From contig NZ_CP072793.1 in the NCBI RefSeq assembly GCF_017901175.1, positions 372,001-436,000 of the forward strand: a stretch of DNA of 64,000 bases, in the 5' to 3' direction. The notes under the pieces were generated by a model. It was not told the DNA's origin. It saw only the letters and a program-made list of their open reading frames with translations, and searched no databases. Below, piece by piece: positions 8,289 to 27,081 of this stretch. Source of the stretch: Thiothrix unzii (GTDB taxonomy: Bacteria > Pseudomonadota > Gammaproteobacteria > Thiotrichales > Thiotrichaceae). Position 1 is the first letter of the stretch. Each line of letters begins with the position of its first letter. The position numbers and the translations under genes are program-made.

Positions 8289-9518
8289 ATGACTACAGCA
8301 ACCCTACGCACGTCCCGTGCTTTCAGCGACTGGATTCCAGCAAGTTGGGCGTACCCCGAAACCGGTGCGACCCGTGATTTACGTCTCGATTTTATGCGCG
8401 GTTTCGTGATTCCGTTGCTGTTTGCCAGCCATTTTGAGTTTTTTTCCGCGCTGATGTTTATCGGCTGGGAACGCATCGGGGTGGTGTCAACGGCTGAGGT
8501 TTTCGTGATTCTTTCCGGCATTGTGGTGGGCATGGTGTACGGCAAAAAAGTGAAACGCGACGGGTTGGCAGCGGTGATGCCCGGTTTGCTGCAACGTTCG
8601 GTGGATTTGTACCGGATTAGTGTGGTGATGATTTTGATCGTGGCGGCGATCCGCTACATTCCTTGGCTGGATAGTACGGTAATTACCACCTTTCACGACC
8701 CTTATGGCGGCAACACTTATCAGCTTTACCCCGCGTTGGATGCGAATTTGTCGACAGTGATCAGCAAGGCGTTATTGCTGCAAATCGGCCCGCACCAGTT
8801 TCAGGTTATAGGGATGTACGTGGCGATGTTCGTTTTGTTTACCCCGCTGGTGTTTTTTATGCTCACTAAGCAACGGGTGGGGCTGCTGCTGGGGGTAAGT
8901 TGGGTGTTGTACGCGATTCATTATGGAGCACCGTTTCAATCGTTGCGCCCGACTGGTGCGCAGTTTGAGTATGCTTTCCCCTTGCTGGCTTGGCAGTTAA
9001 TTTATGTGCATGGCATGGTGGTGGGTTATTACAAACAGGATGTGCTGAACTTTTTCAAGGGTGCGTGGGGGCAGCGTTTGCTGTACTTGTGCGTGCTAAT
9101 GACGCTGGGATTTATCTGGCTGACGCTGAATCATCCGCTGGTACAATTCCCAGATTGGGCAAGATTACAGGTGATTCCACCGGATACTTTTTTATACATC
9201 TACAATGAATATTTCCCGAAAAGCAAGTTGGGTATTGGGCGACTGATTAATGCGGTGGTGTTGTTTGTGAGTATTTACGCGCTGTTAACCGTGTGCTGGC
9301 AACCGTTGCATCGTGCGTTGGGCTGGTTGTTGATTCCGCTGGGGCAGGCATCGTTGTATGTGTTTTTTACGCACGTATTTTTATTGCTGGCGATTATGAA
9401 TACGCCGCTGCCGGGGTATAACGATTTTTGGATTAATACTGCGATTCATGCCGGGTTGCTGGCGTTGGTGTGGGTAATGGTGAAAAAAGAGTTTCTGTTT
9501 AAATGGATTCCGCATTGA
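8289..9518 (+). CDS. OpgC-like membrane acyltransferase
   Basis: A 409-residue polytopic membrane protein with about ten hydrophobic segments. The start region [11 protein letters not shown] followed by an [11 protein letters not shown] stretch, and the FTHVFLLL segment near the end, match the OpgC family, members of which add succinyl groups to periplasmic glucans in the inner membrane. No opgG or opgH is present here. It stands convergent, 19 bases from the end of the minus-strand glycan operon, so I infer it decorates that glycan. The ATG at 8289 gives the family N-terminus; in-frame ATGs at 8247 and 8220 are possible but have no better ribosome site. Confidence 0.85.
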
Positions 9519-9537
9519 GTGCAGTGCGGCGAATTGC

Positions 9538-11193
9538 TTAAAACTGCCAGCCTTGACTGACTGTTACCGCACCTTGGTTGAGGTTGTCGCCGGGAAAGGC
9601 ATTCGTACCGTAATTGCTGTATTCCACCCGCCACTTACCGGGGCGCGGGTCGGCGTAACCGAAGGCGTAAGTCCAGTTCGGGTTGCCGCCGCTTAACGGC
9701 ACGCTCGCGGTGGTGCGGGCGTACCATTTGGATTTGGGGTTCCATTGCAGGGTTCCGCTGAGACTGGGCTTGCCGTTGGCGGGAATGCCGAGATTCGCGG
9801 ATGCGGCAAGTTTGTGATTGCTTAAAGTGCGGGATTTGATTTTATGCCCGATATTGAGCGTGGTTTTTTTCAACGCTAAACCTTCCCCCGGTTGCAACGG
9901 CCCCCAGTTATTGGCTTGCACCGACCAGCCCCCCGGTTTGTTATTGGCGTATCCCGCACTCCATGCATACCCCGGTTCACCGTCTTTAAGTGAGGCATTG
10001 CCGCTGATAAACCAATCAGGTTTGGGCGACCAAGTAACGCTGGCAGACACGCTATTACTGCCGTCTTTGAGCGAAACGCTGTCAGCAATACTACCGGCGA
10101 TGCGTAACCGTTGTGATCTGCTGGCAATCCCGCTCATGTCGTGTGCGGGGAGCGCACCGTTATCTGGCATTTCCTGATACATCGGAATCTCCCCGGCTGC
10201 CGATTGCGCAAGAATAGCTGGCAACACCACCTCTTCCTGCGTCACTGTTTTAGCTGGCGTTGGGGGGCGTACTTTTGGCATCGGTGCGGGCTTGCTGATT
10301 GCTGTGTCCTCCAGTGGCGGTGCAGGGGTAATCGCAGTCGTGGCTAACGTTATCGGTGATTCAGGCATGTTGACCGCGCTGGGTGGCTGCTGGGGTGCGG
10401 GTGGTTTCTGAGGTGCTGCGGTTTTCACGACGGTTGGTGCGGACTTGCTTGCGAGTGCTGGCGGTTCGGCTTTTACTGCCGTTTTGATGGGCGTAACCGG
10501 GCAAGTCGTTTGCCAGTTAAACGGAAATGGCGTGGTTGCCGCAGTTACTTCCACATTATCGGTAAGCGGTCGCAGCCATGCGGGTGCGGTTTCTGCTTCT
10601 CGCACCAATAAGCCTGTTTCCGGGTGCGGAAAACATTGCTGGCGGTAAATCCGGTGTAAAAACAGGTGATAAGCCGGGGGGGCGATGCGGATTTCATCCA
10701 GCAGTAACGGCACAAAGCGCGTCGTCGGATCAGGTGTGAGGAAACCCCATTGGCGAAAACCTTCCCATTTTAGTGGCACATCGCCAGCGCGTTGTTTTTG
10801 CAGCACGGCATTTTGCAGCGATACATCGTAAAACTGCTGATCATCCAGCACTTCGCAATAGTCCCATTGCAACGCTACCCGTTCCGCCGTTTCGCGCAAA
10901 TCGGGGAAGCGCGTCGCCGTTTGCTGCAAGGTATGCAGGGCAATGTCGAGCGTTCCGGCGTGCAGGCTGGGTTGGGCGGGGCGTTTGCCGAGCCATTCAT
11001 CCGGCCATTGTTGCCCCGCCGGGGAAATATTGAAAAGTCGCTGAAGGTGATGCGCTGCGGTCGGGCTATCCACTGCACAGGCGAGGGTTTCCAATGTTTG
11101 CAGTAACGGCGGTTGCGGTTGTGCCAGTGTTGTTGGCATCCATAACCCGCCTGTTACTGCCAGTAACAGGCTTTTATTTAACCGCGCAAGCAT
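9538..11193 (-). CDS. Outer-membrane beta-strand-rich protein of the glycan operon
   Basis: A 551-residue exported protein of no family I can name. Signal peptide at 1-24 (ending TTLAQ), a globular region to about 235, a Pro/Ala/Lys-rich linker (about 235-345), then a C-terminal region of alternating strands (SVSASVTWSPKPDWF, SGTLQWNPKSKWY, WTYAFGYADPRPGKW) that ends in Phe (GWQF), as outer-membrane barrels do. The start lies 20 bases inside the preceding DUF3131 gene, so translation is coupled. Last gene of the operon that starts at the Hpt gene. Inferred role: outer-membrane export or anchoring of the glycan; alternative: a periplasmic beta-sandwich. Confidence 0.6.
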   Translation of the reverse strand: MLARLNKSLLLAVTGGLWMPTTLAQPQPPLLQTLETLACAVDSPTAAHHLQRLFNISPAGQQWPDEWLGKRPAQPSLHAGTLDIALHTLQQTATRFPDLRETAERVALQWDYCEVLDDQQFYDVSLQNAVLQKQRAGDVPLKWEGFRQWGFLTPDPTTRFVPLLLDEIRIAPPAYHLFLHRIYRQQCFPHPETGLLVREAETAPAWLRPLTDNVEVTAATTPFPFNWQTTCPVTPIKTAVKAEPPALASKSAPTVVKTAAPQKPPAPQQPPSAVNMPESPITLATTAITPAPPLEDTAISKPAPMPKVRPPTPAKTVTQEEVVLPAILAQSAAGEIPMYQEMPDNGALPAHDMSGIASRSQRLRIAGSIADSVSLKDGSNSVSASVTWSPKPDWFISGNASLKDGEPGYAWSAGYANNKPGGWSVQANNWGPLQPGEGLALKKTTLNIGHKIKSRTLSNHKLAASANLGIPANGKPSLSGTLQWNPKSKWYARTTASVPLSGGNPNWTYAFGYADPRPGKWRVEYSNYGTNAFPGDNLNQGAVTVSQGWQF

Positions 11194-12637
11194 CGCACGT
11201 TTGAGTTTTGGCTACGTCCAGCTTCATCCCGCGCTGGCAGCGTTTGCACGTTGGGTAAAATTCACCGTATTTTTTGTGCAGCAGCAGGCTCAAAATAATC
11301 CCGTTGGTGTTGGCGGTAATCGCTTTATTGTAGCCGCCGCCGTTTTCGTAAATGCCCGAATACCAGCCGCGTTCTGGGTCGTAAGCGGTATTTACGGTAT
11401 AGGCCAGTTGCTTACTGTATGGATCATCGGGGAACAGCAACGCCATCGACATTGCGGCTTTCACCGAAATGGTTTTGAGGTTGTCGTAGCGCACCCCTTT
11501 GTCGGTGGTGGTATTCCAAGGCAATCCGGCGGTGAAAATGGTGTTGTAAAGGAAGTACGGTTTTTGGTCGATATTGTCTTCTGAAACAGCCGTGATTACC
11601 CCGGTTTCTTCCCAGCGGCGTTTTTGTACTTGGTAAATATTTGCCAGTAACGGTTGGTTCTCGGCATCAATACCGTTTTCAACCGCATCCATTGCATACG
11701 ATTCTGTTACCACGTAGTTGTACGCGCCCAAATCACGTGGATCGCGGCGGTCATACGCCACTGGCACGTCGTAAATATTGATTGTTTCGCGGAATTCATT
11801 GTTGTAAGTGGCTGAAACTCGCTGATCGTAACCCAATTCGCGGAAAATTTTCCCCGCGTATTGCTCGTAACCCAACCGCCCTTCCTGCGCTACCACCATC
11901 GCTTTAGTGGCGGGGTCACGGTAAAGCCCGAACATTTGCCCGTCTTTAATCAAGCGGGTTAAATCCCAGCGTTCCACTGCTTTTTTAGCTGGGTAGGCGT
12001 ATTTCGGATGCATACAGCCCAGCGTATTCAGCCAGGAAATGATTCGCGCCAGATCCAAGGCAGAAACCCCGATCCCGTCCGGCGCGGGTTGATTGCGGTA
12101 ATCCACCATTGCGCCCGTGCCTGCGTGATACACCTTGTTGGGGGCTTCCTTGTTGAACAGTTCCATTGTGGTGAGGGTTTTGAACATCGCTTGAATGCGT
12201 TCGTCGAAATCCTTTTCGTCAATCAAACCAAAATCGTGCGCGGCTATGGTGGCAGCCAGTGCCGAACCCGTGTCCCACATCGTGGTGGATTGGTATTTAT
12301 CCGCCGCGTTATACAAGCCGGTCTTGGGGTTGTAATTGTTTTCAAAGTATTTCCAAGCGACTTTTGCCATTTCTAGGTCTTTGCTGCATAAGCCTTGCGG
12401 GTTGCCTAAGCAACTGTTGTCGGGGGCTTGAGCCAGTGCGCAAAAAGTGTCGTTGCGTGACGCGCTGTTACTGGATGACAGCAAACTCCACACACTGCCA
12501 GTTTGATGGGGAGTGGGGGCGGTTTGGGTAATTGCGTAGATAATTCCTGTCGCGAGCAATATCCCGGTAAGCCATGCCAGACCAATGCGCACGGGGCGAC
12601 GTGTCCAGATTTGTTGTTTATTATTATGCTCAGTCAT
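11174..12637 (-). CDS. DUF3131 periplasmic protein with a Cys-rich tail
   Basis: A 487-residue protein with an N-terminal membrane anchor (about 17-36) and a DUF3131 domain (about 85-460), an alpha-helical toroid-like fold related to glycoside hydrolases. Shared with the paralogue at 25765-27081: WDTGSALAATIAA, MVDYRNQPAPDGIG, EGRLGYEQYAGK, DPRDLGAYNYV, AVSEDNIDQKPYF, RGWYSGIYENGG, ITANTNGI. Unlike the paralogue it ends with CKRC and CDAC pairs, a zinc-ribbon-like or disulfide tail. The gene overlaps the upstream membrane protein gene by 8 bases and the downstream barrel gene by 20. Inferred role: trimming or binding the nascent polymer in the periplasm. Confidence 0.8.
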   Translation of the reverse strand: MTEHNNKQQIWTRRPVRIGLAWLTGILLATGIIYAITQTAPTPHQTGSVWSLLSSSNSASRNDTFCALAQAPDNSCLGNPQGLCSKDLEMAKVAWKYFENNYNPKTGLYNAADKYQSTTMWDTGSALAATIAAHDFGLIDEKDFDERIQAMFKTLTTMELFNKEAPNKVYHAGTGAMVDYRNQPAPDGIGVSALDLARIISWLNTLGCMHPKYAYPAKKAVERWDLTRLIKDGQMFGLYRDPATKAMVVAQEGRLGYEQYAGKIFRELGYDQRVSATYNNEFRETINIYDVPVAYDRRDPRDLGAYNYVVTESYAMDAVENGIDAENQPLLANIYQVQKRRWEETGVITAVSEDNIDQKPYFLYNTIFTAGLPWNTTTDKGVRYDNLKTISVKAAMSMALLFPDDPYSKQLAYTVNTAYDPERGWYSGIYENGGGYNKAITANTNGIILSLLLHKKYGEFYPTCKRCQRGMKLDVAKTQTCDACAVK

Positions 12638-13142
12638 TGCCCAGTTCCCCTAAAACGGCTTCGATTTCTTTGCGGATAGCAGCAACGTTAGTATTAGTGT
12701 CACCGCCTTTCCACGCGCTGACCAGTTTGTCGATAGGGTTCATTAAACCTTGCAGGCGGGCTTTTTTATCGGCAAAAGTTTCACCTGCTTCCCACAGTGG
12801 CTTTTTTGTGGTGGCAAGCTTTTCAGCAGCAGGCACGCCTTTACCTTCCGCACGTAATTGTTCTGCTTGATTGACCACTGACAGGGTTTTGTAAAGGTTT
12901 AAGCGTTTTTGCAGCGCGGTGAGCTTTTGTTCGGCGGCATCGTCAGCGGCTTTACCCAGTTTGCTGGTTACACCGTGGATTGCGTCCAGCTTTTCGGTGA
13001 GTGGGGTGAGCGCGGCGGTAACGCTGGCGGCGGATGCTTGTTGCCCTTGTTGTAATGCAGCGTGTAATTGCTGATTTTGGAAGGTGAGATAAACGACCAG
13101 CACCAGCAGCATACTCAGTAAAACGTGTTGCAAGGTATTCAT
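12630..13142 (-). CDS. Single-pass membrane protein with coiled-coil region
   Basis: A 170-residue protein I cannot assign. It has an N-terminal membrane span (about 7-22, VLLSMLLVLVVYLTF), then Gln/Ala-rich and Leu/Lys helical sequence suggesting a periplasmic coiled coil, and a charged C-terminal half. It begins 16 bases after the hybrid kinase and overlaps the DUF3131 start by 8 bases, so it sits exactly between the signalling and glycan genes of the operon. It may scaffold the DUF3131 protein at the membrane; that is inference from position only. Confidence 0.6.
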   Translation of the reverse strand: MNTLQHVLLSMLLVLVVYLTFQNQQLHAALQQGQQASAASVTAALTPLTEKLDAIHGVTSKLGKAADDAAEQKLTALQKRLNLYKTLSVVNQAEQLRAEGKGVPAAEKLATTKKPLWEAGETFADKKARLQGLMNPIDKLVSAWKGGDTNTNVAAIRKEIEAVLGELGND

Positions 13143-13158: not shown

Positions 13159-14547
13159 TTAGGTTATGGCGGGACACCATGCCCGCAAAGTGGTTGCCAA
13201 TACGTCCATTTGGATGGGTTTGGTGAGGCAGTCGTTCATGCCCGCTGCGAGGTATTCCAGTTCATCGCCTTTCATGGCGTTGGCGGTCAAGGCGATGATC
13301 GGCATCGCAGCGAGTTGCGGAAATTCAGCGCGGATACGGCGGGTAGTTTCTACGCCGCTGATACCGGGCATTTGAATATCCATTAACACCAGCGCGAAGC
13401 TTTCGGTATGCAGGTAATCAAGGGCTTGATAGCCGTCTTCCGCCAGCGTGATGTGATAACCCAGTTTAGTGAGCATTCCCCGCGCTACCATTTGGTTAAC
13501 CTTGTGGTCTTCCACTACCAAAATGCGGGCGAGTTGCTGATCTTTATTGCTGGTAACAGCGGCGCGAGGTGGCGTGCTGTCGGTAATCGGTGTGACTGCA
13601 CCGGGTGGCACGGCGGTTAAATCCACAATCGGGATTTCAAACCAGAAGGTACTGCCCGCGCCCAAGGTACTTTCGATCCCAATCGTGCCGCCCATTAAGT
13701 TCACCAGTTTACGGCTAATCGCCAGCCCCAAACCCGTACCGCTTTGTTTGTGCTGATCGTAACGGCTGATTTGGCTGAAAGCGTGAAACAGTTTGCGCTG
13801 TTTTTCGGGGGGAATGCCTACGCCAGAATCTTGCACTTCAAAGCGTAAGGTTTCTCCGCCGGGATGGCTAATACGCACTTGCACGCCGCCGCGTTCGGTA
13901 AATTTAATCGCATTACCCACTAAATTCAGTAACACCTGACGCAAACGCAGCGAATCGCCGTGTAAGCGTGTTGGCAAATCTTCCGCAATGCAGACCTCCA
14001 GCGTTAACTGCTTTTGCACGGCAATGGTACGCATCGTGGCAATGATATTGGGTAAAATATCGCAAATCAGGAAGCCTTCATCCAGCAGTTCCAGCTTGCC
14101 TGCTTCTAAGCGGGAAATGTCGAGAATGTCGTTGATAATGCCCAGTAATGACTGCGCCGATTGCAAAATAGTATCAACCTGCAAGCGTTGTTCCGACTCC
14201 AGCGTGGTGTGCTGCAATAGGGTGGTCATACCGATAATGCCATTCATCGGGGTGCGGATTTCGTGACTCATGGCGGCGAGAAACGCACTTTTCGCCCGGT
14301 TAGCAGCCATTGCCTGATCACGCGCTTCGACCAATTCGCGGGTGCGTTCCGTCACGGTTTGCTCCAGCGAATCGGCGACAGCGCGTAATTCCTGATTAGC
14401 TTGATACAGTTCCAAGCTTTTCGATTCCAGCAATTGCTCCGCTTGTTTACGCGCATTACGTTCGCGTTCTAAGCGTTTTTCCAGCCGTGCGACCAGTTCC
14501 GCACTCATGGTTTCAGGCTGCAATGCGTTGGATATGGAATTCAACAT
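13159..14547 (-). CDS. Hybrid histidine kinase linked to H-NOX
   Basis: A 462-residue soluble hybrid kinase. N-terminal coiled coil (about 14-85), HisKA with H95 in [11 protein letters not shown], HATPase with N box ([14 protein letters not shown]) and G boxes ([16 protein letters not shown]), and a C-terminal receiver with D390 (VLMDIQMPG), T and K (CLTKP). It has no membrane span or PAS domain, so its input must come from a partner protein. Its start overlaps the H-NOX gene by 35 bases, and H-NOX proteins commonly control the neighbouring kinase. Phosphate would pass to the Hpt protein encoded first in the operon. Confidence 0.93.
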
Positions 14548-15064
14548 GCGTGCCCCGGCCTTGCGAACAATCGCGGATGTCGATTTTTGCAGGTTCTTGG
14601 TAATGGTAGAGACAGCCTTCGATCAAACCTTCGGCGAGTGAGGAAAACGGATGCTGGGAACGGTACACCATCACCAATTGCTGATCGTTATCGCTGCGGG
14701 TAGTTTCAAAGCTGGGTAATTCCGCATCGGGGTAAAGTTTGCGCACTTCGATGTGCACGTAATTTTCAATCGAATCCAGAAAATCGAAAGCGGTGCGGGT
14801 ATTGTGGAAAAACGCCGGATACAGTTCCACAAAACGCCCGAACAAATGTTGTCCAAAAATTTTCACTAAAGCCGGAATCGGTAAGCGGGTTTCTTTGGAT
14901 AGGCATTGCACCAACGCCAGCATTTCAGAATGCGGGTAAGTGCCTACGGCGGTATACGCGCCACCGGATGGCAGGTTGGCATCGTCAATAATATCGTCCA
15001 CCATTGCGGCAGAAAATTTTTGCTCAACCATGTCGAGAAATTCGGTAAAAACCAGACCTTTCAT
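14513..15064 (-). CDS. H-NOX heme-based nitric oxide sensor
   Basis: A 183-residue H-NOX (HNOB) domain protein, a cytoplasmic heme sensor that binds NO and in other bacteria inhibits or activates an adjacent histidine kinase. Seen: [17 protein letters not shown] start, [14 protein letters not shown], and the proximal heme ligand H104 in [19 protein letters not shown]. The propionate-binding motif, usually Y-x-S-x-R, reads Y134-x-S136-x-H138 here, so the Arg is replaced by His. The gene lies between Hpt (24-base gap) and the hybrid kinase (35-base overlap), which makes a functional link to both very likely. Confidence 0.93.
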
Positions 15065-15088: not shown

Positions 15089-15475
15089 TTATGCGGATAG
15101 GGCGGTAACGATTGGCGCGTGGGCATTCAGCCACACACAAACTTCGGCGTAAGTGGTGTTGAGCTGTTGCCAGTGTTGCATAGCGCGGATTTGATCTTGA
15201 TCGTCTTTGTATTCTTCCAGCAAGCGTGCCAGCTCTGCCATGCCGAATGCACCAATCAGGCGGCTGCTGGACTTGAGTTTGTGGCAAATAATGCCGACTT
15301 GTTGGCTATCACCTTGGGTAATGCTTTGCTGTAAAGCGTCGATGGCGGCAACCACATCCTGGTGGAAAACGTCCAGCAGTTCGGTAAATTCGTCTGCCAT
15401 GATTTCTTGCAGTTCGTGGTAAGTATCCGCATCAATGGTGTGGGCTGTCGTTATTGTCATCATTCCATTACCCAT
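15089..15475 (-). CDS. Histidine phosphotransfer (Hpt) protein
   Basis: A 128-residue single-domain Hpt protein that accepts phosphate from hybrid-kinase receivers and passes it to a response regulator. H65 lies in CHKLKSSSRLIGA, the standard Hpt signature. It is the first gene of the minus-strand operon (Hpt, H-NOX, hybrid kinase, membrane protein, DUF3131, barrel). It diverges from the REC-PP2C gene, 91 bases away. Neither hybrid kinase in the locus has its own Hpt domain, so this protein is the obvious hub for both. An in-frame ATG at 15463 is an alternative start. Confidence 0.92.
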   Translation of the reverse strand: MGNGMMTITTAHTIDADTYHELQEIMADEFTELLDVFHQDVVAAIDALQQSITQGDSQQVGIICHKLKSSSRLIGAFGMAELARLLEEYKDDQDQIRAMQHWQQLNTTYAEVCVWLNAHAPIVTALSA

Positions 15476-15566
15476 AGGCTTATAGTTGTGTATTTTGAGT
15501 TTTGATTGGTGCTAGGATACACCTAATAACTTATTTCATTCAAATCATAAAAAAGACATATCGAAG

Positions 15567-16766
15567 ATGAATATCCTAGTGGTAGATGATGCCAGAGATA
15601 TGCAGTTGATTCTGCGCCGCATCTTGACCCTGATGGGACATCATGTGGTACTCGCGGATCACGGTGAAGCCGCGTGGGAGCTGATCCAACAACAGCATTT
15701 TCAACTGGTGATTAGCGATTGGGTAATGCCGTTTATGGACGGCCCCACCTTATGCCGCACTATTCGCGCGGCGAGCTTACCGCATTACGTGTACATTATT
15801 TTGCTCACGGGTATGTCAGGCAAGCAAAATCTGATCCAAGGTATGGAAGCGGGTGCGGATGATTTCGCCACCAAGCCGATTGTGCGTGAAGAGCTGGAAG
15901 TACGCCTGCGTGCAGCCCAGCGTGTGCTGGATCTGGAACACCGTCTGGAAGATAAAAACCGTCATTTGGAAAGTGTTAATCACTCCTTATCCGCTGCGCA
16001 ACGCTTGATTCAAAGTGATTTGGAACGCGCCGCAGTGTTGCAGACGGGGGTATTGCCGAGTCAGAAAAACTTTGGGCGGGTAAGCGTCGATTGGTTTTTC
16101 CAGCCTGCGCAATACATTGGCGGCGATACTTTTAACTATTTTCCGTTAAATGATGATTTGTTCTTTTTTTATTCGATTGATGTTTCCGGGCATGGTATCG
16201 CATCGGCGTTGCTGTCGATGTGTTTACAAACCTTGCTGAGTGCAACCAGTGAATTGCATTGTTTGACCGAGTTAAATGCGGAGGCGATTGCAAACGTGCC
16301 ATCGCGTTTGGCAGCCCGCTTGAATCAGCATTTACACGAAAAGCTGGATACCGGGGATCACTATTTAACCATGATCATGGGTGTGGTCGATACCCAGCAA
16401 GAGCGGTTACATTTTGTGCAAGCAGGGCATCCGCAGCCATTTTTATACACGCCGGGAACCAGCGGATTGGTACAGGTCGAGTGTACTGGGTTTCCGATAG
16501 GTTTATTGCCGGAGGTGGAATACGAAACCATTAGCGTGCCGTTTCCGAGTGGTAGCCGGTTTGTGTTGTATTCCGACGGGTTACTGGAATTGCCGACAGC
16601 GCACGATGAATTGTTAACCGAAACAGGATTGTTGCAAGCCTTGCAAGCCTCCATCGGGCAGCCGGTGAATACATTGATTGAGCCGTTGCGGGTACAGCTA
16701 GGGTTGGATCAGGCGGTGCAAACGCGCCCTGATGATATTTCTTTGCTGATTATGGAGCTGCACTGA
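15567..16766 (+). CDS. Response regulator with PP2C (SpoIIE/RsbU-type) phosphatase
   Basis: A 399-residue protein. Receiver domain (1-120) with D51 (VISDWVMP), T81 and K103 (ATKP); coiled linker (about 125-160); PP2C-type phosphatase (about 165-399) with metal motifs IGGDTFNYF, DVSGHGIASALL, GHPQPFLY, YSDGLLEL and DDISLLI. The family removes phosphate from a serine of a STAS anti-anti-sigma protein; such a protein is encoded at 19759-20097. The architecture resembles the REC-PP2C part of Pseudomonas HsbR, which is fed by HptB. The 3' end overlaps the convergent second hybrid kinase by 17 bases. Expected to be the output of the phosphorelay. Confidence 0.93.
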   Translation: MNILVVDDARDMQLILRRILTLMGHHVVLADHGEAAWELIQQQHFQLVISDWVMPFMDGPTLCRTIRAASLPHYVYIILLTGMSGKQNLIQGMEAGADDFATKPIVREELEVRLRAAQRVLDLEHRLEDKNRHLESVNHSLSAAQRLIQSDLERAAVLQTGVLPSQKNFGRVSVDWFFQPAQYIGGDTFNYFPLNDDLFFFYSIDVSGHGIASALLSMCLQTLLSATSELHCLTELNAEAIANVPSRLAARLNQHLHEKLDTGDHYLTMIMGVVDTQQERLHFVQAGHPQPFLYTPGTSGLVQVECTGFPIGLLPEVEYETISVPFPSGSRFVLYSDGLLELPTAHDELLTETGLLQALQASIGQPVNTLIEPLRVQLGLDQAVQTRPDDISLLIMELH

Positions 16767-19758: not shown

Positions 19759-20097
19759 ATGCAATTTGCAACCCGTACCGAAGGTGATTTCATCATTGCC
19801 ACCATTCTGGAAACCCGCATGGATGCCGCCATTGCGCCAGCACTCAAAATCCACATTGCTCAATTACTCACCGAAGGCAAAACCCGTATTGTACTCGACA
19901 TCACTGACGTGACTTTCATGGACAGTAGCAGCCTTGGCGCACTGGTCAGTTTGCTGAAAATGGTAGGTAATAAAGGCGACCTGATTATCGTTGGCGCGAC
20001 GGGCATTGTCGCGGAATTATTCAAATTAACCCGCATGGAGCGGGTGTTCCGCATGGCTGCGACTGTCGATGCGGCGATGGAAGCTATTCCAGCCTAA
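19759..20097 (+). CDS. STAS-domain anti-sigma factor antagonist
   Basis: A 112-residue single STAS domain protein of the SpoIIAA/RsbV type. The phosphorylation site motif FMDSSSLGALVSL is present, with S56-S58 after D55. When dephosphorylated such proteins bind an anti-sigma or other target kinase. The expected phosphatase is the REC-PP2C protein at 15567-16766 and the expected kinase the HATPase at 21342-21773. The start has a GAGGA site 10 bases upstream; an in-frame earlier ATG has none. First gene of the plus-strand operon. Confidence 0.94.
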   Translation: MQFATRTEGDFIIATILETRMDAAIAPALKIHIAQLLTEGKTRIVLDITDVTFMDSSSLGALVSLLKMVGNKGDLIIVGATGIVAELFKLTRMERVFRMAATVDAAMEAIPA

Positions 20098-20139
20098 TAA
20101 TAATTGAATAAGCGTCGATAGATGCGAGGGGAGGGGGCG

Positions 20140-21342
20140 ATGAAAGCGATGATTCTGGCGGCAGGTAAGGGGACACGGGTACGCCCTATCACCAACGAAA
20201 TGCCAAAACCGATGATTCCCATTTTGCGTAAGCCGGTGATGGAGTCGATTATCGACCTGCTACGTGCCCACGATGTGCATGAAGTGGTGGTGAATACCAG
20301 CCATTTAGCTCCGGTGATCGAAAACTATTTTCGGGATGGCAGCCAGCATGGGGTGCACATGGCGTATTCCTACGAAGGTCACATGACTCATGCCGGACTC
20401 GAAGGTAAAGCCCTCGGTTCGGCGGGTGGGATGAAACGGATTCAGGATTTTTCCGGCTTTTTCGATGAAACCTTTATCGTGTTGTGCGGTGATGCGTGGA
20501 TCGACCTCGACATCAGTGCCGCGCTGCGCTGGCATAAAGAAAAGGGCGGGATTGCCACAGTAATCTTGCAGGAAGTGCCGCATGAGGAAGTACATAAATA
20601 CGGCGTGGTAAAATTGGATGCACGTGAACGTATTGTGCAGTTTCAGGAAAAGCCCAAGCAGGAAGAGGCAGTTTCCAACACCATCAATACGGGTATTTAC
20701 CTGTTTGAGCCGGAGATTTTCCGCTACATTCCTTCCGGCGTGGAATACGACATTGGCAGTCAATTGTTCCCTGCACTAGTCGCGGCGGGTGAGGAATTCT
20801 ACGGTTTGCCGATGGATTTTCAGTGGGTCGATATTGGCTCTGTACCTGATGTATGGGCAGCGACGCGTATGGCATTACAAGGTCAGATCAAAGGTTTCCC
20901 GATGCCTGGTAAGGAAGTGCGCCCCGGCGTGTGGACGGGCATTAATACCAGCATCAACTGGGAAAAGGTGAAAATTATCCCGCCAGTTTATATCGGCAGC
21001 AGCACCAAAATTGAAGCAGGTGCAGAAATCGTCGGGCCGTGCATGATTGGTGCAAACTGCGTGATTGAATCCGGTGCGGAAATCAGCCAATGCCTGATTA
21101 GCGATTACACCCGCGTGGGCGGTATTGCCGTGCTCGATAACAAATTGGTGTTTGGTGGTGACTGCATTTCCCCGGATGGCAGTGTGTTGAATCTGGGTGA
21201 AACTCAAATCCGCTGGCTGGTTGATGATATGCGTCGTGCGCTGAATCCCGGTGATATTCACGACATGTTGCTGTTTAGCAATATGCTCAGTTTCCACGAA
21301 TTGAATGCGCGTGAAACCTTACCTGAGCTGGAGGTGGCGTAA
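20140..21342 (+). CDS. NDP-sugar nucleotidyltransferase with left-handed beta-helix
   Basis: A 400-residue enzyme of the sugar-1-phosphate nucleotidyltransferase family, which makes NDP-sugars for polymer synthesis. N-terminal signature LAAGKGTRVRPIT then MPKPMIP; GDAWIDLD with the metal Asp; FQEKP; DIGSVPDVWAATR. The C-terminal part (about 270-345) has hexapeptide-type repeats (IGSSTKIEAGAEIVGPCMIG). Sugar specificity cannot be read: mannose-1-P and glucose-1-P members look alike. A GGAGGGGG ribosome site precedes this ATG. The stop overlaps the next start by one base (TAATG). It is placed between the two partner-switch proteins, suggesting dedication to this system. Confidence 0.92.
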   Translation: MKAMILAAGKGTRVRPITNEMPKPMIPILRKPVMESIIDLLRAHDVHEVVVNTSHLAPVIENYFRDGSQHGVHMAYSYEGHMTHAGLEGKALGSAGGMKRIQDFSGFFDETFIVLCGDAWIDLDISAALRWHKEKGGIATVILQEVPHEEVHKYGVVKLDARERIVQFQEKPKQEEAVSNTINTGIYLFEPEIFRYIPSGVEYDIGSQLFPALVAAGEEFYGLPMDFQWVDIGSVPDVWAATRMALQGQIKGFPMPGKEVRPGVWTGINTSINWEKVKIIPPVYIGSSTKIEAGAEIVGPCMIGANCVIESGAEISQCLISDYTRVGGIAVLDNKLVFGGDCISPDGSVLNLGETQIRWLVDDMRRALNPGDIHDMLLFSNMLSFHELNARETLPELEVA

Positions 21343-21773
21343 TGGAGGCCACCTACCGTGAATACAATATCCGGCTTTCCATCGACAGCCGTTTGGAGCA
21401 GGTGCGGGTACTTTCCGGGGCATTGCGCGGTATTGGGCAAGAGCTGTCGCTGTCCGAAGAGCAACTGGGGCAACTCGAATTGATGATGGTGGAAGCCGTC
21501 AACAATGTAATTGAACACGCTTACCAAATGCAGCATGGCAATGATGTGCAGGTGCGGGTGGAATACAGCCCGCAGGAAGTGCATTTAGTCATTTCCGATC
21601 AAGGTCACGCGATGCCGGACGCATTGCATACCGAAACCCGTGAAATGCCGAACCCGGATGATTTACCGGAAGGCGGTTGGGGCATGGGGTTAATTCACCT
21701 GCTGGCGGATTCGATCCGTTACAGCCGCGATGCCAAGGGCAATCACTTGCACGTCAGCAAGCAGTTGACCTGA
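21342..21773 (+). CDS. RsbW/SpoIIAB-like serine kinase (HATPase)
   Basis: A 143-residue GHKL ATPase of the anti-sigma kinase type. N box MVEAVNNVIEHAYQ, G1 box ISDQGHAMP, G2 box GGWGMGLIHLL. Such kinases phosphorylate a STAS partner and sequester a target such as a sigma factor. Pairs naturally with the STAS protein two genes upstream. No sigma factor gene lies next to it, so the target may be a distant sigma factor or a component of the glycan synthase. Overlaps the nucleotidyltransferase by one base and is one base from the GH2 gene. Confidence 0.91.
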   Translation: MEATYREYNIRLSIDSRLEQVRVLSGALRGIGQELSLSEEQLGQLELMMVEAVNNVIEHAYQMQHGNDVQVRVEYSPQEVHLVISDQGHAMPDALHTETREMPNPDDLPEGGWGMGLIHLLADSIRYSRDAKGNHLHVSKQLT

Positions 21774-21774: not shown

Positions 21775-23922
21775 ATGCAACGTGGGCTGTGGATTGTGCT
21801 GTTAATACTGCTGCTCTTACAGGGTTGCAGTACCCTGCCAGCTACTCAGCCAGCAACGTCGGGTAATAGCCGTTCGTTGGCAGGAACTTGGGCGTTTTTG
21901 CCATCTGGTTCTGTGGCTATGCCTGCTGCGGATGCGCGTTGGCAACGTATTCAGGTTCCCGCTAACTGGTATACGCAAGGTTACGATCATCATGGGATTG
22001 CTTGGTATCGGCTGCAATTTAATGCGGTTGCTGATCCCGCTATGGTTTCTCGGTTGCACTTCGGCGGGGTGGATTACTTCGCGGATGTGTGGCTAAACGG
22101 GCAGAAGCTTGGCGCGCATGAAGGCTATTTCCAACGCTTTGCTTTTGACGTAACGCCGCACCTTAAAACGGGTCAGAATACCTTGCTGGTGCGGGTGAAT
22201 AGCCCGCTGGAAAAACCGCAAGATTTTTCGTTACACAAGCGACTGATTAAAGGGATTTTTGCGCATCACGATACGCGCCCCGGTGGTGCTTGGTCGGAAC
22301 GCGGGCAGGAACGCAATACTGGCGGGATTTGGGGTGAGGTGCGCTTACAGCAATCGCCGCAAGTACAGCTTGTGCCGCAACAAGTATTGGTGCAACCGAC
22401 TCAAGGTTTGACGCATTGGCGGGTTAACGTGGATCTTGATGTGCTGGGGGCGTTGCCAGCAGATGCGCAGTTGCAGTGGACATTGGGTCAATGGCAAGGC
22501 ACAAGCCCAGTCCGTGACACTCTTACTATCCCCATCGCTCACCCCAAACTCTGGCAACCCAAGGGTTACGGTGAGCAACACCTTTACACGCTTAGCGTTA
22601 GTGCGGTGCAAAACGGCACAGTGCTAGACAGCTTCCAGCGCACTATCGGTTTCCGCAAAGTCGAGCGTTCTGCGCAAGGCATCTGGAAAATTAATCATCA
22701 GCGTATCTTGCTCAAAGGCACTAATTACATCGCTCATCAGTGGTTGAGTGCGATGACACCGCAAGATTTCCGGCGTGATATTGCTTTGATGCAAGCGGCT
22801 CACATTAATACGGTGCGCGTCCACGCCCACGTCACCGCGCCGGATTTCTACCGTTTGTGCGATGAAATGGGGTTAATGGTGTGGCAGGATTTTCCGCTGC
22901 AATGGGGCTATCAGGATACGCCAGAGTTCCACCAGCAAGCGGTTTCGCAGGTTGGCGATATGATCCGCCAGTTTGGGCAATACCCATCCATTATCCACTG
23001 GACATTGCACAATGAACCGCCGTGGGATGCGGATTGGATGAAGTGGAAATACCAAGACTACCATCCGCAGCAAAATAAATTGCTCGACGCAAAGCTCTAC
23101 AAAGCGGCGAAAACGCTGGATAACACCCGTCCGATTTCTGCGATTTCTTCTACTAAAGAGCATCCGTGGTTGGGTTGGTATTCTGGGCATTGGTTGGATT
23201 ACGCCAAACCCACCAAGCAATCCACCATTGCGGAATTCGGGGCGCAAGCATTACCCGACCGCTTCGCACTGGCAAAGATTTTGGGCGAAGAGCCTGAATT
23301 ACCCAGCAGCAAGGCTGATTGGAAGCCGTGGGAATATCACAATTTCCAACGTAAAGAGACTTTGGAAATTGCCAAAGTCGCGTCAGGAAAAACGCTGGAA
23401 CAATTCATTACCAACACCCAGCAATATCAGGTGCAACTCACGCAACTTGCAGCGGAATCGTACCGACGGCAAGCCTATCAGCCGGTTGGTGCGTTATTTC
23501 AGTTTATGCTGGTGGAAGATTGGCCTTCGATGAATTGGGGTGTGGTCGATTTTTGGCGTAAACCCAAACCGGGTTATTACGCTTTACAACACGCTTACCA
23601 GCCGATTTTGCCAAGTCTGGCGTGGACTAAGGTGGAATATGCCGCCAATGAGCCGGTGCGCGTTGGGGTGTGGGCGTTAAATGACAGCCTGACCCGCATT
23701 CCTCATGCCCATTATCGGCTCACGCTATGGCAGGGTAAGCAAAAGCGCGATACTCAAGACTGGCAGTTTGAACTTACGCCCGATATGCACCGCCAGTTGC
23801 GCGACTACCTTGTGCCAGTGAATGCGGCGGGTGCTTATCGCCTTGAGGCTGAGATTCTTGATGCGCAAGGCAAGGTCGTTAGCCGCAATGAATACCGTTT
23901 TACCATCCAATCACAACAATAA
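21775..23922 (+). CDS. Glycoside hydrolase family 2 lipoprotein
   Basis: A 715-residue lipoprotein: N-terminal LLILLLLQGCS lipobox with Cys19, then sugar-binding jelly-roll (about 35-190), immunoglobulin-like domain and TIM barrel (about 300-600). Acid/base E414 in HWTLHNEPPWD and nucleophile E487 in TIAEFGAQ fit GH2 (beta-galactosidase, beta-mannosidase, beta-glucuronidase group). Substrate unknown. It probably faces the periplasm or outer membrane and would edit or release the polymer made by the adjacent GT2. Gaps are 1 base before and 10 bases after. Confidence 0.9.
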   Translation: MQRGLWIVLLILLLLQGCSTLPATQPATSGNSRSLAGTWAFLPSGSVAMPAADARWQRIQVPANWYTQGYDHHGIAWYRLQFNAVADPAMVSRLHFGGVDYFADVWLNGQKLGAHEGYFQRFAFDVTPHLKTGQNTLLVRVNSPLEKPQDFSLHKRLIKGIFAHHDTRPGGAWSERGQERNTGGIWGEVRLQQSPQVQLVPQQVLVQPTQGLTHWRVNVDLDVLGALPADAQLQWTLGQWQGTSPVRDTLTIPIAHPKLWQPKGYGEQHLYTLSVSAVQNGTVLDSFQRTIGFRKVERSAQGIWKINHQRILLKGTNYIAHQWLSAMTPQDFRRDIALMQAAHINTVRVHAHVTAPDFYRLCDEMGLMVWQDFPLQWGYQDTPEFHQQAVSQVGDMIRQFGQYPSIIHWTLHNEPPWDADWMKWKYQDYHPQQNKLLDAKLYKAAKTLDNTRPISAISSTKEHPWLGWYSGHWLDYAKPTKQSTIAEFGAQALPDRFALAKILGEEPELPSSKADWKPWEYHNFQRKETLEIAKVASGKTLEQFITNTQQYQVQLTQLAAESYRRQAYQPVGALFQFMLVEDWPSMNWGVVDFWRKPKPGYYALQHAYQPILPSLAWTKVEYAANEPVRVGVWALNDSLTRIPHAHYRLTLWQGKQKRDTQDWQFELTPDMHRQLRDYLVPVNAAGAYRLEAEILDAQGKVVSRNEYRFTIQSQQ

Positions 23923-23932
23923 GCGTACTGTT

Positions 23933-25768
23933 ATGGGATTCTATTTCGACAAATTTGAAGCGCGTCAGCCCGAACCGCCGCTACCTTATTCGGCAGTGAC
24001 GGAAGGTATCTGGCAATTTCTCGCGGTGATCGCGATGACTCTCGGTGCATGGTATTTGTGGTGGCGGTGGACTCAATCGCTTAACCCGGACGCGCTGTGG
24101 TATGCCATCCCGTTAGCTGTGGCAGAAACCGCCTCGTATTTCGGCTTGGGTTTATTCGTTTTCAACTTGTGGAAGGTGAAAGATTACGAGCAACTGCCCC
24201 CGCCTGCCAATTTCAAGGACGTGGTGCGCCCGGATCAAGCGGAAGATCGCCCCATTAAAGTCGACGTGTTTTTCCCCACTTACAACGAAGAGGTGGAATT
24301 GGTGCGTTTAAGCATCATTGACGCGAAAAAAGTCACCTACCCTCATCCGCTTGAGTTAAGTATTTTCGTGCTGGATGATGGTAAACGCCCGGAAATGCAG
24401 CAAGTCGCCACCGAAGAAGGTGTGGGCTATCTGACCCGTAGCAGCAATATCGGTTTCAAAGCGGGTAATTTACGCAATGCAATGGAACAGACTCACGGTG
24501 ATTTTATCGTGATTTGCGATGCGGATACGCGCCCGTTTCCAACCATTTTGGAACATACCCTCGGTTATTTCCGTGACCCGGATGTGGCGTGGGTGCAAAC
24601 CCCGCAGTGGTTTTTTGATTTACCCGAAGGTAAACGTTTGCCGGAAGTTTGGGGGCGTTACCTCAAAGCACCGGGACGCTGGCTGGGCAAAGGTGTGGAA
24701 GCCCTTATCGGTGAAGTGCGTGTCGGCGAAGACCCGTTTGTGAATGAGCCGAAAATGTTTTACGACGTGATTCAACGCCGCCGTAATTGGGCCAATGCAT
24801 CGTTTTGTTGCGGTGCTGGCTCCATTCACCGCCGTGAAGCAGTGATGGAAGCCGCGCTTAAATGTTACGCCGATACCATTGAAGCGCAGGTCGGCAAACA
24901 ATCAAAACAATTACAAAAACTGATGGGAAATGCCGAACTGGACAGTGAGTTAGTGCAGGAAATGCGCCATCAGGTAGCGGGTGAAGAAGAGTTTACCCCG
25001 TATCGTTTCCACGTTTCCGAAGACATTTACACTTCTATTGTGTTGCACGCTGATCAAGACCGTCACTGGAAATCGGTAATGCATCCGGCGGTTGAGTCGA
25101 AAATGCTTTCCCCGCAGGATTTACTGAGCTGGACGGTGCAACGTTTCAAATACGCGGGTGGCACGCTCGACATTGTGTTGCACGATAATCCGATGACGCG
25201 CAAAGGCATGAGCTGGGCGCAGCGTTTGATGTACGGCGCGACCGCTTGGTCATACCTTGGCGGTATCTGGAATATGGTGTTTTTGCTGGCTCCGTTGGTG
25301 TATTTGTTCAGCGGCATTGCACCGGTAAGCGCGTATACGGGCGACTTTTTCAAGCATATTTTACCGTTCCTGATTTTCATGGAACTGGCCTTTATGGTGG
25401 GGACGTGGGGCATCGCTGGCTACCGTTCTAAGGCTAGTTATTTATCATTCTTCCCGGTGAATTTACAGGCGATTTGGACGGTGTTGAAAGGCGAAAAAAT
25501 CAAGTTTCCGGTTACGCCCAAAGACCGTCAGGAAGGTAATTTCTTTCATCTGGTGTTGCCGCAGTTTACGGTGATTGTGTTGACGTTGGCGGGTTTGGTG
25601 TATGCATCGGTGCAGTATTTTGTGCTGGGCAATAACGCTTATTCGCTGGGTGGAGTTTTGGTCAATATTTTCTGGGGGCTGAATAATATTTTCGCGTTGA
25701 GCGGAATTGTATTCGCTGCATTTTGGAAGCCAGAGGAAGAACAACAATATAACGAGGTGATTGCATGA
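23933..25768 (+). CDS. Cellulose-synthase-like family 2 glycosyltransferase without PilZ
   Basis: A 611-residue processive membrane glycosyltransferase. Two N-terminal membrane spans (about 20-40 and 50-70), then the GT-A domain: FFPTYNEE, D148-D149-G, D196-A-D198, VQTPQWFFD, FCCGAGSIHRREA, SED at D364, followed by about five membrane spans. The product-site motif, usually QxxRW, is Q403-R-F-K-Y407. The protein ends soon after the last span, so there is no PilZ domain and no direct c-di-GMP control as in BcsA. The start is the ATG 10 bases after the GH2 stop; longer in-frame starts lie inside the GH2 gene. The product is a beta-glycan of unknown kind. Confidence 0.92.
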   Translation: MGFYFDKFEARQPEPPLPYSAVTEGIWQFLAVIAMTLGAWYLWWRWTQSLNPDALWYAIPLAVAETASYFGLGLFVFNLWKVKDYEQLPPPANFKDVVRPDQAEDRPIKVDVFFPTYNEEVELVRLSIIDAKKVTYPHPLELSIFVLDDGKRPEMQQVATEEGVGYLTRSSNIGFKAGNLRNAMEQTHGDFIVICDADTRPFPTILEHTLGYFRDPDVAWVQTPQWFFDLPEGKRLPEVWGRYLKAPGRWLGKGVEALIGEVRVGEDPFVNEPKMFYDVIQRRRNWANASFCCGAGSIHRREAVMEAALKCYADTIEAQVGKQSKQLQKLMGNAELDSELVQEMRHQVAGEEEFTPYRFHVSEDIYTSIVLHADQDRHWKSVMHPAVESKMLSPQDLLSWTVQRFKYAGGTLDIVLHDNPMTRKGMSWAQRLMYGATAWSYLGGIWNMVFLLAPLVYLFSGIAPVSAYTGDFFKHILPFLIFMELAFMVGTWGIAGYRSKASYLSFFPVNLQAIWTVLKGEKIKFPVTPKDRQEGNFFHLVLPQFTVIVLTLAGLVYASVQYFVLGNNAYSLGGVLVNIFWGLNNIFALSGIVFAAFWKPEEEQQYNEVIA

Positions 25769-27081
25769 GCTTTAAACAAGGATTGGTTCGCGCCCGCAGC
25801 CACATTATCTTTCTGACAGGTTTGGTCACGGCATTTGGCATGGTCGGTTGGCTGGAGGGGATTAGCATGGGTAACGCTGCAACCCCGGAGGCGATAGTCG
25901 CACCCAGCAACGATGTCAGCATCGCCCCGACTCGTGCGTTGACTGCGCAGGAAATGCAATGGGCGCAAACCGCATGGAAATATTTCCAGAACAACACTGT
26001 TCCCGCCACGGGGTTGGTGAACTCGGTTGATAACTATCCCGCATCAACGTTGTGGGACACCTCGTCTTACCTGATGGCGGTTATTGCTGCACAACGTTTG
26101 GGTATTATTGAGCAAACTGAGTTCGATGCGCGTATTTTTAAAGCCTTGGATACATTGGCGAAACTGCCGTTGTTTGAAGGTAAACTGCCCAATAAATCGT
26201 ACAATACTGTGTCGCTGCAAATGGTCGATTACACCAATCAACCCAGCGAAAAAGGTATCGGTTGGTCGGCAATTGATATTGGGCGGTTGCTCGTGCCGCT
26301 CAATGTGTTGACTTGGCATTACCCGCAACACACCACAGCGGTGAAACAGGTATTAGCCAGTTGGGACACTAAGCCGATGCTGGTTAACGGTGTGTTGCAT
26401 GGCGCGGTTGTGACCGATGCGGGCGACACCGAATACTTGCAAGAAGGGCGGTTGGGTTACGAAGAATACGCCGCGAAATCCTTTAATTTGATGGGGTTAG
26501 ATGTCGCCAACTCGTTGCGTTACACCGATTTCCTCAAATTTGTGAACATTGAAGGGGTGGAGATTGGCACTGACAGTCGTGATCCGCAGCAATACGGGGC
26601 GCACAACTACGTGGTCAGTGAGCCTTATATTCTTGATGGTATTGAGTTCGGCTGGGATCATTTGTCGCAAGAGCTGGCATGGCGCGTTTACAAAGCGCAG
26701 GAAAAACGCGCAGCTAATACCGGTGTATTGACTGCCGTTTCTGAAGACAATATCGACCAGCCGCCGTACTTCGTTTACAACACCGTGTTTACCGATGGCA
26801 AAGCGTGGAATGCGATTTCCGAAAAAGGTGCGGATGCCAGCCAATTTAAGAGCTTGAGTACCAAAGCGGCATTCGGTTGGCACATGCTTTACGAAACGGC
26901 TTACACCAAACAACTGGTGGAAAAAGTTGCGACATTAGCGAATCCGCAACGTGGTTGGTATTCCGGCGTGTATGAATCTAACGGGCAACCGAATAAAGCG
27001 ATTACCGCCAATACCAACGGGATTGTTCTGGAAGCGTTGGCGTATAAGCAAGGCGGCAAGTTGATGCGTTTGGGGCGGTAG
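25765..27081 (+). CDS. DUF3131 periplasmic protein, paralogue of 11174-12637
   Basis: A 438-residue protein with an N-terminal anchor or signal (about 12-34) and a DUF3131 domain (about 65-430). Shared blocks with its paralogue: WDTSSYLMAVIAA, MVDYTNQPSEKGIG, EGRLGYEEYAAK, DPQQYGAHNYV, AVSEDNIDQPPYF, RGWYSGVYESNG, ITANTNGIVL. It lacks the Cys pairs found at the end of the paralogue. The start overlaps the glycosyltransferase stop by four bases. Having one copy in each operon ties the two operons to the same product. Likely a glycan-processing or binding protein; the reaction is not established. Confidence 0.83.
   Translation: MSFKQGLVRARSHIIFLTGLVTAFGMVGWLEGISMGNAATPEAIVAPSNDVSIAPTRALTAQEMQWAQTAWKYFQNNTVPATGLVNSVDNYPASTLWDTSSYLMAVIAAQRLGIIEQTEFDARIFKALDTLAKLPLFEGKLPNKSYNTVSLQMVDYTNQPSEKGIGWSAIDIGRLLVPLNVLTWHYPQHTTAVKQVLASWDTKPMLVNGVLHGAVVTDAGDTEYLQEGRLGYEEYAAKSFNLMGLDVANSLRYTDFLKFVNIEGVEIGTDSRDPQQYGAHNYVVSEPYILDGIEFGWDHLSQELAWRVYKAQEKRAANTGVLTAVSEDNIDQPPYFVYNTVFTDGKAWNAISEKGADASQFKSLSTKAAFGWHMLYETAYTKQLVEKVATLANPQRGWYSGVYESNGQPNKAITANTNGIVLEALAYKQGGKLMRLGR

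Follow-up and report, generated by a model that had tools for sequence, protein, structure and literature searches.

Control of bacterial biofilms by nitric oxide (NO) has mostly been read as control through cyclic di-GMP (c-di-GMP). In Vibrio fischeri, SypA is a STAS protein, SypE combines a phosphatase and a kinase in one protein, and the syp genes form a larger locus elsewhere. According to the accessible part of the account of this system, NO inhibits biofilm through HnoX, which inhibits HahK, and phosphorylated SypE favours biofilm, its action on SypA lying below the transcriptional level (PMC12369376). In Pseudomonas, as far as the available portion of the source describes it, hybrid kinases feed one Hpt protein in the HptB-HsbR-HsbA system, a REC-PP2C protein and an anti-sigma-factor antagonist follow, the output is biofilm, and both HsbR and CrsR bind RpoS (PMC6482189). 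Here we describe a locus at positions 8289-27081 of the window, which is the whole 64,000-nucleotide stretch of Thiothrix unzii DNA that was analysed. It places an H-NOX gene, a FIST gene, two hybrid histidine kinases (HK1 and HK2), a stand-alone Hpt, a REC-PP2C phosphatase, a STAS protein and an RsbW-like kinase together with a cellulose-synthase-like family 2 glycosyltransferase (GT2) without a PilZ domain and two DUF3131 proteins (a and b). Its design, in which NO-type sensing is joined to partner switching, is known; the locus is a conserved and condensed variant of it with exchangeable sensors, set on a little-known synthase family.

The resemblance to the V. fischeri HnoX-HahK-SypF(Hpt)-SypG/SypE-SypA pathway lies in the H-NOX, the adjacent REC-bearing kinase, the Hpt step and the presumed polysaccharide output, and we also count as shared that a response regulator controls SypA below the transcription level. 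However, in the accessible description hnoX-hahK is an operon of its own, the Hpt is a domain of SypF and a transcription factor, SypG, takes part (PMC12369376), whereas here one locus encodes Hpt, PP2C, RsbW and GT2 separately and also includes a second sensor kinase. The Pseudomonas system would share with the locus the convergence of hybrid kinases on one Hpt, the REC-PP2C protein, the antagonist and the biofilm output, but HsbR itself holds the kinase/anti-sigma domain, and the outputs named in the available part of the source are FlgM/FliA, RpoS and a diguanylate cyclase, with no synthase (PMC6482189). The HsbR/CrsR architecture, with REC, PP2C and kinase/anti-sigma domains in one protein, thus differs from that found here, where the phosphatase has REC and PP2C only and the kinase is a separate gene. 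In the H-NOX/HnoK and NosP/NahK pairs an H-NOX or FIST protein acts on a partner kinase, as is proposed here, though the outputs in the portions consulted are mostly c-di-GMP enzymes (PMC8846402, PMC12570481) and not, as here, a partner switch beside a PilZ-less synthase. Accessory block 3b of Klebsiella, with a cellulose synthase, three DUF3131 proteins, OpgC, a hybrid kinase and an anti-sigma factor with antagonist, resembles the core gene set, a likeness of gene names; the accessible part of that source presents a gene block, names neither H-NOX nor FIST and offers no mechanism (PMC12974863). The first-pass annotation of this DNA knew of no described system with all these parts. For the combined locus, searches among open-licence papers gave no title or abstract describing one of this kind, but the statement needs narrowing, as the V. 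fischeri HnoX-SypA pathway and the Klebsiella core overlap with parts of it in the portions of those sources available (PMC12369376, PMC12974863).

Linkage of candidate heme sensors to a conserved cluster

The sample of the family Thiotrichaceae comprised 63 genomes, with 33 H-NOX, 79 FIST_C and 98 PF11845 hits. DUF3131 was found in 32 of these genomes and H-NOX in 33, both in 29 and neither in 27 (Fisher p 2e-10, a value that ignores kinship), and the H-NOX lies no more than 15 kb from DUF3131 in 27 of the 29 genomes that have both. Across the 32 genomes with DUF3131, the same distance takes in H-NOX in 27, FIST in 10 and a c-heme Cache domain (PF11845) in 8, where random placement expects at most 0.39, 0.8 and 0.93 hits, respectively. 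At least one sensor type is so placed in 30 of the 32, and linked-sensor hits in kin genomes are not independent events. Co-location in the cluster is far beyond random placement and is no accident.

The second sensor is exchanged between clusters, being either a FIST kinase or a c-heme Cache kinase. The second hybrid kinase of stretch L284 carries a periplasmic Tll0287/DUF3365 domain (Pfam), and a genome search with this family (PF11845) located it at the corresponding position of L285, L288 and L295 and also within the clusters of genomes G013, G016, G028 and G276. These Tll0287-type hybrid kinases belong to the GT2/DUF3131 clusters of sister genera and lie at L284:5924-8743, L285:5077-7881, L288:7472-10366 and L295:4726-7587; others are in L053 and in L033, where H-NOX and FIST both adjoin the kinase. 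All six linked PF11845 kinases inspected, of eight, contain CxxCH (G028 and G276 lie outside this set). When fused to signalling modules, c-heme Cache domains have NO-sensor properties according to the accessible part of a 2026 preprint (PMC12889525).

GT2 homologues were sought in 57 genomes, of which 30 matched and 23, including that of the window, had close full-length homologues; the stretches round the GT2 were fetched for the other 22, comprising 13 of the same genus and 9 of other genera. Hpt, H-NOX, HK1, PP2C, STAS, RsbW, GH2, GT2 and DUF3131b stand together in all 13 same-genus stretches, the nucleotidyltransferase in 12 and the FIST/HK2 pair in 8. The search for co-occurrence that the first-pass annotation had proposed thus finds the combined cluster conserved, with FIST and HK2 in 8 of 13 relatives. 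In other genera, PP2C, STAS, RsbW, GT2 and DUF3131b occur in seven of nine stretches; L048 (4 kb) and L052, which starts inside STAS, are shortened by contig ends. The H-NOX occupies several kinds of position: with Hpt and divergent from PP2C (Thiothrix, L281, L282, L283 and L296), downstream of DUF3131b and following another hybrid kinase (L284, L285, L288 and L295), or convergent with DUF3131b (L286, L287, L293 and L294). As H-NOX and HK1 lie on differing sides of the same cluster in other genera, their link to it has survived rearrangements.

L281, from another genus, has the full regulatory set including FIST and HK2, with no nucleotidyltransferase and no GH2. The GT2 of this stretch (genome G283, L281:13770-15624) appears as two overlapping open reading frames in different frames, either a sequencing error or a broken gene. 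In L280, from a same-genus genome that is 91 percent complete and in which no DUF3131 was found, Hpt-H-NOX-HK1 persists opposite PP2C-STAS-nucleotidyltransferase-RsbW, which argues that sensor and switch are themselves a unit. Beyond the 13 same-genus stretches, the same-genus genomes G005 and G009 have H-NOX with no DUF3131 found, and no GT2 was seen in the H-NOX stretches L279, L289, L290, L291 and L292. A second sensor/switch module without GT2 or DUF3131 lies in L058 (G002 contig C26, a Thiothrix metagenome-assembled genome); it contains two kinases, one of them a c-heme Cache protein with CxxCH, together with Hpt, PP2C, STAS, nucleotidyltransferase, RsbW, FIST and HK2, and a NirS-type gene occurs at a distance of about 20 kb, apparently on the same contig.

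Signalling proteins and the partner switch

Every gene named in the first-pass annotation is present in its place and on its strand, as judged by open reading frames and Pfam, and only an OpgC gene at the left edge had gone unlisted. Packing is tight, with all neighbours overlapping or no more than 25 bases apart (taking the nominal GT2 start) except at two divergent gaps. The first of these gaps (15476..15566, 91 bp), a probable promoter region by prediction, separates the stand-alone Hpt gene (15089..15475, minus strand; PF01627, 3.7e-11) from the gene for the 399-residue REC-PP2C phosphatase of the SpoIIE type (15567..16766, plus; PF00072, 6e-25; PF07228, 1.6e-38). Behind Hpt on the minus strand follow the H-NOX gene (14513..15064; PF07700, 6e-39; solved H-NOX-type chains, 1e-39), which encodes a predicted heme NO/O2-binding protein, and HK1 (13159..14547), whose start is overlapped by the H-NOX gene and whose HisKA-HATPase-REC architecture (PF00512, PF02518, PF00072) includes no sensor domain recognised by Pfam. 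HK2, of the same HisKA-HATPase-REC type (16750..18411, minus; Pfam matches), is preceded by the FIST_N/FIST_C gene (18408..19628, minus; PF08495, 5e-24; PF10442, 3e-25), whose product is a candidate heme/NO sensor of HK2. The second gap (19629..19722, 94 bp), also predicted to be a probable promoter region, leads into a plus-strand run of STAS (19723..20097; PF01740, 1e-16; TIGR00377 above cut-off), of the anti-sigma-antagonist type, a sugar-phosphate nucleotidyltransferase with a hexapeptide tail (20122..21342; PF00483, 5e-53) and the RsbW/SpoIIAB-like serine kinase (21342..21773; PF13581, 6e-27).

Residues were checked in alignments of the window proteins with homologues from the fetched stretches. 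The phospho-histidine position is kept in 36/36 rows of HK1, 20/20 of HK2 and 25/25 of Hpt; the REC aspartate is kept in 34/36 rows of HK1 (two gaps) and 37/38 of REC-PP2C, and the PP2C aspartates in 36-37 of 38. The middle position of the STAS site DSSS is Ser in 38 and Thr in 2 of 40 rows, and the N-box E, N and H of RsbW are kept in all 38; the Gly column of its G2-box is Gly in only 24 of 38 rows, but is Gly in the window. The locus thus contains the components of a PP2C-STAS-RsbW partner switch, with a SpoIIE-type phosphatase, a STAS phospho-Ser site and an RsbW-type kinase with its N-box.

YxSxR is the H-NOX motif, and the window H-NOX (HNOB domain PF07700) has the proximal His104, Tyr134 and Ser136, with His in place of the motif Arg (His 19, Arg 13 and Ala 1 among 33 rows). 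Among the 33 H-NOX proteins of the family, 30 retain the proximal heme His. Apart from the His for Arg in YxSxR, and a departure in the GT2 described below, the checked residues are intact in the signalling proteins and GT2 of the window. The FIST protein has an invariant His215 (14/14 rows) and, as in NosP/NahK, its FIST_N and FIST_C domains adjoin a hybrid kinase; HK2 and HK1 score 164.6 and 183.2 bits against the NahK/ErcS model NF041832, below its cut-off of 400, and the FIST protein has no NCBIfam match, the presence of a NosP model in that library being uncertain. Haloarchaeal and Salinibacter FIST proteins (L171 and L172), 37 and 31 percent identical to that of the window, immediately precede PAS kinases, and the L171 pair stands among glycan genes.

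The RsbW-like kinase is the only stand-alone one found in the genome, scoring 94.4 bits in a genome search with PF13581, in which the other six hits reach at most 27.6 bits in frames of 459-770 residues. The nucleotidyltransferase lies between STAS and RsbW in Vibrio-type loci too, and its next relatives outside Thiothrix are cyanobacterial (55-61 percent identity among the best 80 of 175 relatives). A unit shared with the partner switches of cyanobacteria was considered on this ground and rejected, as none of 73 loci (L061-L133, some of them short) has STAS at E ≤ 1e-3 and the sole PP2C- or RsbW-like hits are one each, both weak, in L065 and L063.

The polymer machine and its relatives outside the family

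The plus-strand run continues with a GH2-type glycosidase with a lipoprotein-like start (21775..23922; PF02836, PF22666, PF02837), the GT2 (23888..25768; PF00535, 6e-13; BcsA chains, 1.5e-40) and DUF3131b, which has a helical membrane anchor (25765..27081; PF11329, 2.6e-153). The GT2 start is uncertain within about 23888-23933; homologues align from about residue 33, which places the true start downstream of that of the longest open reading frame. The minus-strand run ends beyond HK1 with a small membrane-anchored protein (12630..13142) that has a hydrophobic start, a coiled-coil look and no family above cut-off in Pfam or NCBIfam, and that is kept beside DUF3131a in the stretches of relatives; then DUF3131a (11174..12637; PF11329, 2.6e-127) and a barrel-like protein of 551 residues (9538..11193; PF11329, 0.0014, below cut-off). 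The OpgC-type membrane protein (8289..9518, plus; PF10129, 1.4e-50) closes the left edge, and OpgC is also found near GT2/DUF3131 in L036, L045, L046, L051, L281, Paracoccus L168 and Pantoea L169.

The GT2 is related to BcsA, but scores 231.4 bits against the BcsA model TIGR03030, whose cut-off is 699.1. It retains D, DxD and ED, while QRFKY replaces QxxRW (K and Y each in 49/53 rows); it has neither the C-terminal PilZ domain nor the QxxRW of BcsA. No PilZ, GGDEF or EAL match was obtained at E ≤ 0.05 among 20 scanned proteins (16 of the cluster and 4 neighbours), which bears out the PilZ-less GT2 of the first-pass annotation. Genome-wide, the single PilZ match is a frame of 124 residues elsewhere, and no other Bcs family matched the cluster proteins in Pfam. 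The loop between CCG and SED in the GT2 was considered as a regulatory site; it has 72 residues in Thiotrichaceae, Vibrio-type loci, Paracoccus and L215, and 68 both in Pantoea, which has RsbW, and in L166, which has no switch, and since this gives no clean correlation with the switch we do not claim it as such.

An AlphaFold 2 model of DUF3131b (predicted template modelling score 0.85) best matches the cyclization domain of a cyclic beta-1,2-glucan synthase from T. italicus (8wy1; Z 36.3, 2.6 Å over 343 residues); it also matches glucanases of C. pinensis (5gzh, Z 31.7) and T. funiculosus (6imu, Z 24.2). After the best match, the ranking as far as Z 24 consists of cyclic glucan synthases, putative glucoamylases and beta-1,2-glucanases, and other glycosidases and epimerases begin at about 21; families outside the list of the fold search are not excluded by it. 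The DUF3131 profile also matches 8wy1 (3.5e-6 over about 100 residues), and acidic residues, E227 and D270 among them, do not vary across 40 sequences. DUF3131 (PF11329), as modelled, shares the (alpha/alpha)6-type fold of beta-1,2-glucan enzymes of families GH189, GH144 and GH162. The OpgC family is named for the substitution of periplasmic glucans, and with this neighbour beside the DUF3131 fold our leading guess for the polymer is a beta-glucan, perhaps with beta-1,2 links. In cyclic beta-1,2-glucan synthases the cyclization domain has the fold seen in DUF3131, whereas here GT2 and DUF3131 are separate proteins, just as the absence of PilZ and the QRFKY motif set the machine apart from Bcs. 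The 551-residue protein, with a helical start of weak DUF3131 likeness and about 12 predicted C-terminal strands, is a possible outer-membrane outlet. Its model (mean pLDDT, the predicted local confidence, 46.9) was too poor for a fold search, and homologues occur in many family clusters, with weak ones in Vibrio-type loci.

DUF3131 is rare outside the family, being found in 2 of 229 class-sample and 20 of 398 phylum-sample genomes, the window genome counted in both. Seventeen stretches with a related GT2 were compared (L166-L170, L201, L203, L205-L213 and L215), leaving aside L202 and L204, which are the second halves of L201 and L203, L214, which has no GT2, and L216-L219, where DUF3131 is fused in frames of 816-936 residues and GT2 scores are 18-31 bits. 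PP2C, STAS and RsbW are all present in seven (L167, L168, L170, L201, L203, L205 and L215); Pantoea L169 has PP2C and RsbW with no STAS found, L207 has PP2C only, and L206, L208, L209 and L211 have STAS only. The short L210 gave no PP2C, STAS or RsbW hit. Vibrio THAF190c and three genomes of genus g210 share the order PP2C-STAS-nucleotidyltransferase-RsbW-GT2-DUF3131x3, which is that of Thiothrix without GH2. In Pantoea stewartii, a globin-like gene precedes a PAS hybrid kinase with Hpt. The record name "globin" was rejected as a firm label, as there is no Pfam match at E 10 and the match to the PA3967 structure is 4.5e-6, which makes the protein globin-like only; megablast found no copy of the Pantoea locus in E. 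coli. L170, on a Nostoc plasmid, has a more distant GT2, three DUF3131, PIG-L and STAS, and also PP2C-like pieces, an RsbW-like gene and a hybrid kinase with Hpt.

Proposed route and competing explanations

We consider it reasonably probable, judging from gene content and sequence, that the locus is one signalling-and-synthesis unit, in which NO-responsive kinases act on an Hpt/REC-PP2C/STAS/RsbW switch that gates glycan synthesis. In such a unit, HK1 would be governed by H-NOX and HK2 by the FIST protein, and phosphate would pass from the REC domain of each kinase to the Hpt that both share, and from it to the REC domain of REC-PP2C. Between them, this phosphatase and the RsbW-like kinase would set the phosphorylation of STAS, which would permit or block the PilZ-less GT2 and its DUF3131, OpgC and GH2 partners in making and processing a beta-glucan of the surface or periplasm that may contain beta-1,2 links. 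The analogy of V. fischeri would predict that NO silences HK1 and lowers glycan output. Here we infer NO as the ligand, the order of phosphotransfer, the action of STAS on the synthase, the polymer chemistry and the sign of the response. The sensor genes beside the cluster suggest that NO steers the polymer by protein switching, rather than through c-di-GMP; the earlier proposal that NO or redox state does so is plausible, and conservation now supports it better.

Several observations weigh against this unit. H-NOX in some bacteria binds O2 or senses redox, and the window FIST protein is a candidate heme sensor by sequence. Two clusters (G032 and G270) have no H-NOX, FIST or PF11845 within 15 kb, and FIST and PF11845 are common elsewhere in family genomes (10 of 79 and 8 of 98 are linked), so that only linked copies count. 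The heme His is absent in 3 of 33 family H-NOX proteins, namely in L032, which is inside a cluster, and in L279 and L289, whose genomes gave no DUF3131 hit. No Hpt turned up in L045, L046, L051, L053 and L293, and the relay is therefore not universal. Outside the family, H-NOX and FIST hits are lacking in all 17 stretches, L166, L212 and L213 have no partner-switch gene despite their related GT2 and long flanks, and in Paracoccus the input differs, since its phosphatase bears HAMP in place of REC and lies next to a GAF gene. Cytochrome-d1 NirS is present in 8 of 16 same-genus genomes whereas H-NOX is present in all 16; the sensor thus does not track self-made NO, and we rejected self-made NO as the driver.

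The missing NirS in half of the same-genus genomes would also fit sensors that report redox or oxygen instead of NO, through H-NOX thiol or heme redox and through heme or a small molecule at FIST, and that tune a sheath or holdfast glycan in sulfide-oxygen gradients. In the accessible parts of their sources, V. cholerae H-NOX senses redox (PMC7108781) and a FIST protein responds to heme (PMC8846402). However, three heme families, each linked to NO in the portions of print available, have been recruited to one cluster (PMC12889525, PMC8846402), a pattern with which O2 is still compatible, and we regard the redox or oxygen explanation as possible but rather unlikely. We hold similarly doubtful a classical anti-sigma system, in which RsbW would sequester a sigma factor such as RpoS and the adjacent glycan genes would be one transcriptional target. 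RsbW matches anti-sigma kinase models below their cut-offs, STAS is above the cut-off of the antagonist superfamily, and the related switches HsbR and CrsR bind RpoS in the accessible part of the source (PMC6482189). RpoS, RpoE-type and RpoH sigma factors are present in the window genome, so RsbW could be an ordinary anti-sigma factor, a further point against a directly gated synthase. Against the anti-sigma explanation stand the absence of a sigma-factor gene among the scanned proteins of 8289-27081, RpoH at window 31624-32493 being a few kb downstream and separate from the cluster, and the fact that several families keep the switch next to the same GT2. Four loci of family f196, moreover, have STAS (29-52 bits) immediately upstream of GT2 or GH2-GT2, where neither RsbW nor PP2C was found as its neighbour. 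Two of these genomes, G334 and G443 (99 and 93 percent complete), have no recognisable stand-alone RsbW-type kinase, their weak PF13581 hits being frames of 366-634 residues, ordinary kinases by size, and this favours STAS as the acting partner; the other two with STAS, G384 and G447, do have an RsbW-type frame of 176-180 residues elsewhere, which counts the other way. That kinases and sensors simply drifted into a glycan island without a functional tie would agree with the variability of the sensor modules, FIST/HK2 being missing in 5 of 13 relatives, but we find it very improbable given the retention across rearrangements and several genera and the H-NOX linkage in 27 of 29 genomes against less than one by random placement.

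The signalling-and-synthesis unit could also be an instance of a general class, which we put forward only tentatively: an NO-gated partner switch in which phospho-STAS would directly gate a PilZ-less GT2 in place of c-di-GMP, with exchangeable heme sensors (H-NOX, FIST, c-heme Cache and perhaps globin) on one Hpt/REC-PP2C node; in it, DUF3131 would be a new family of glycosidases or transglycosidases that shapes a beta-1,2-type glucan. As the family keeps sensors of NO-linked kinds beside a partner switch and a synthase that has no c-di-GMP domain, a few purified proteins would suffice to test directly whether NO can reach the matrix independently of c-di-GMP. The similar core in Vibrio, Pantoea and Paracoccus, and in Klebsiella according to the available part of the published description (PMC12974863), would extend the reach of such work beyond Thiothrix, and the fold assignment of DUF3131 provides a concrete enzymatic hypothesis for a family of unknown function. 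Further along the window, positions 54059-63553 hold an ordinary cell-wall and division run, with a penicillin-binding protein transpeptidase, Mur ligases, a member of the FtsW/RodA family and a family 28 glycosyltransferase.

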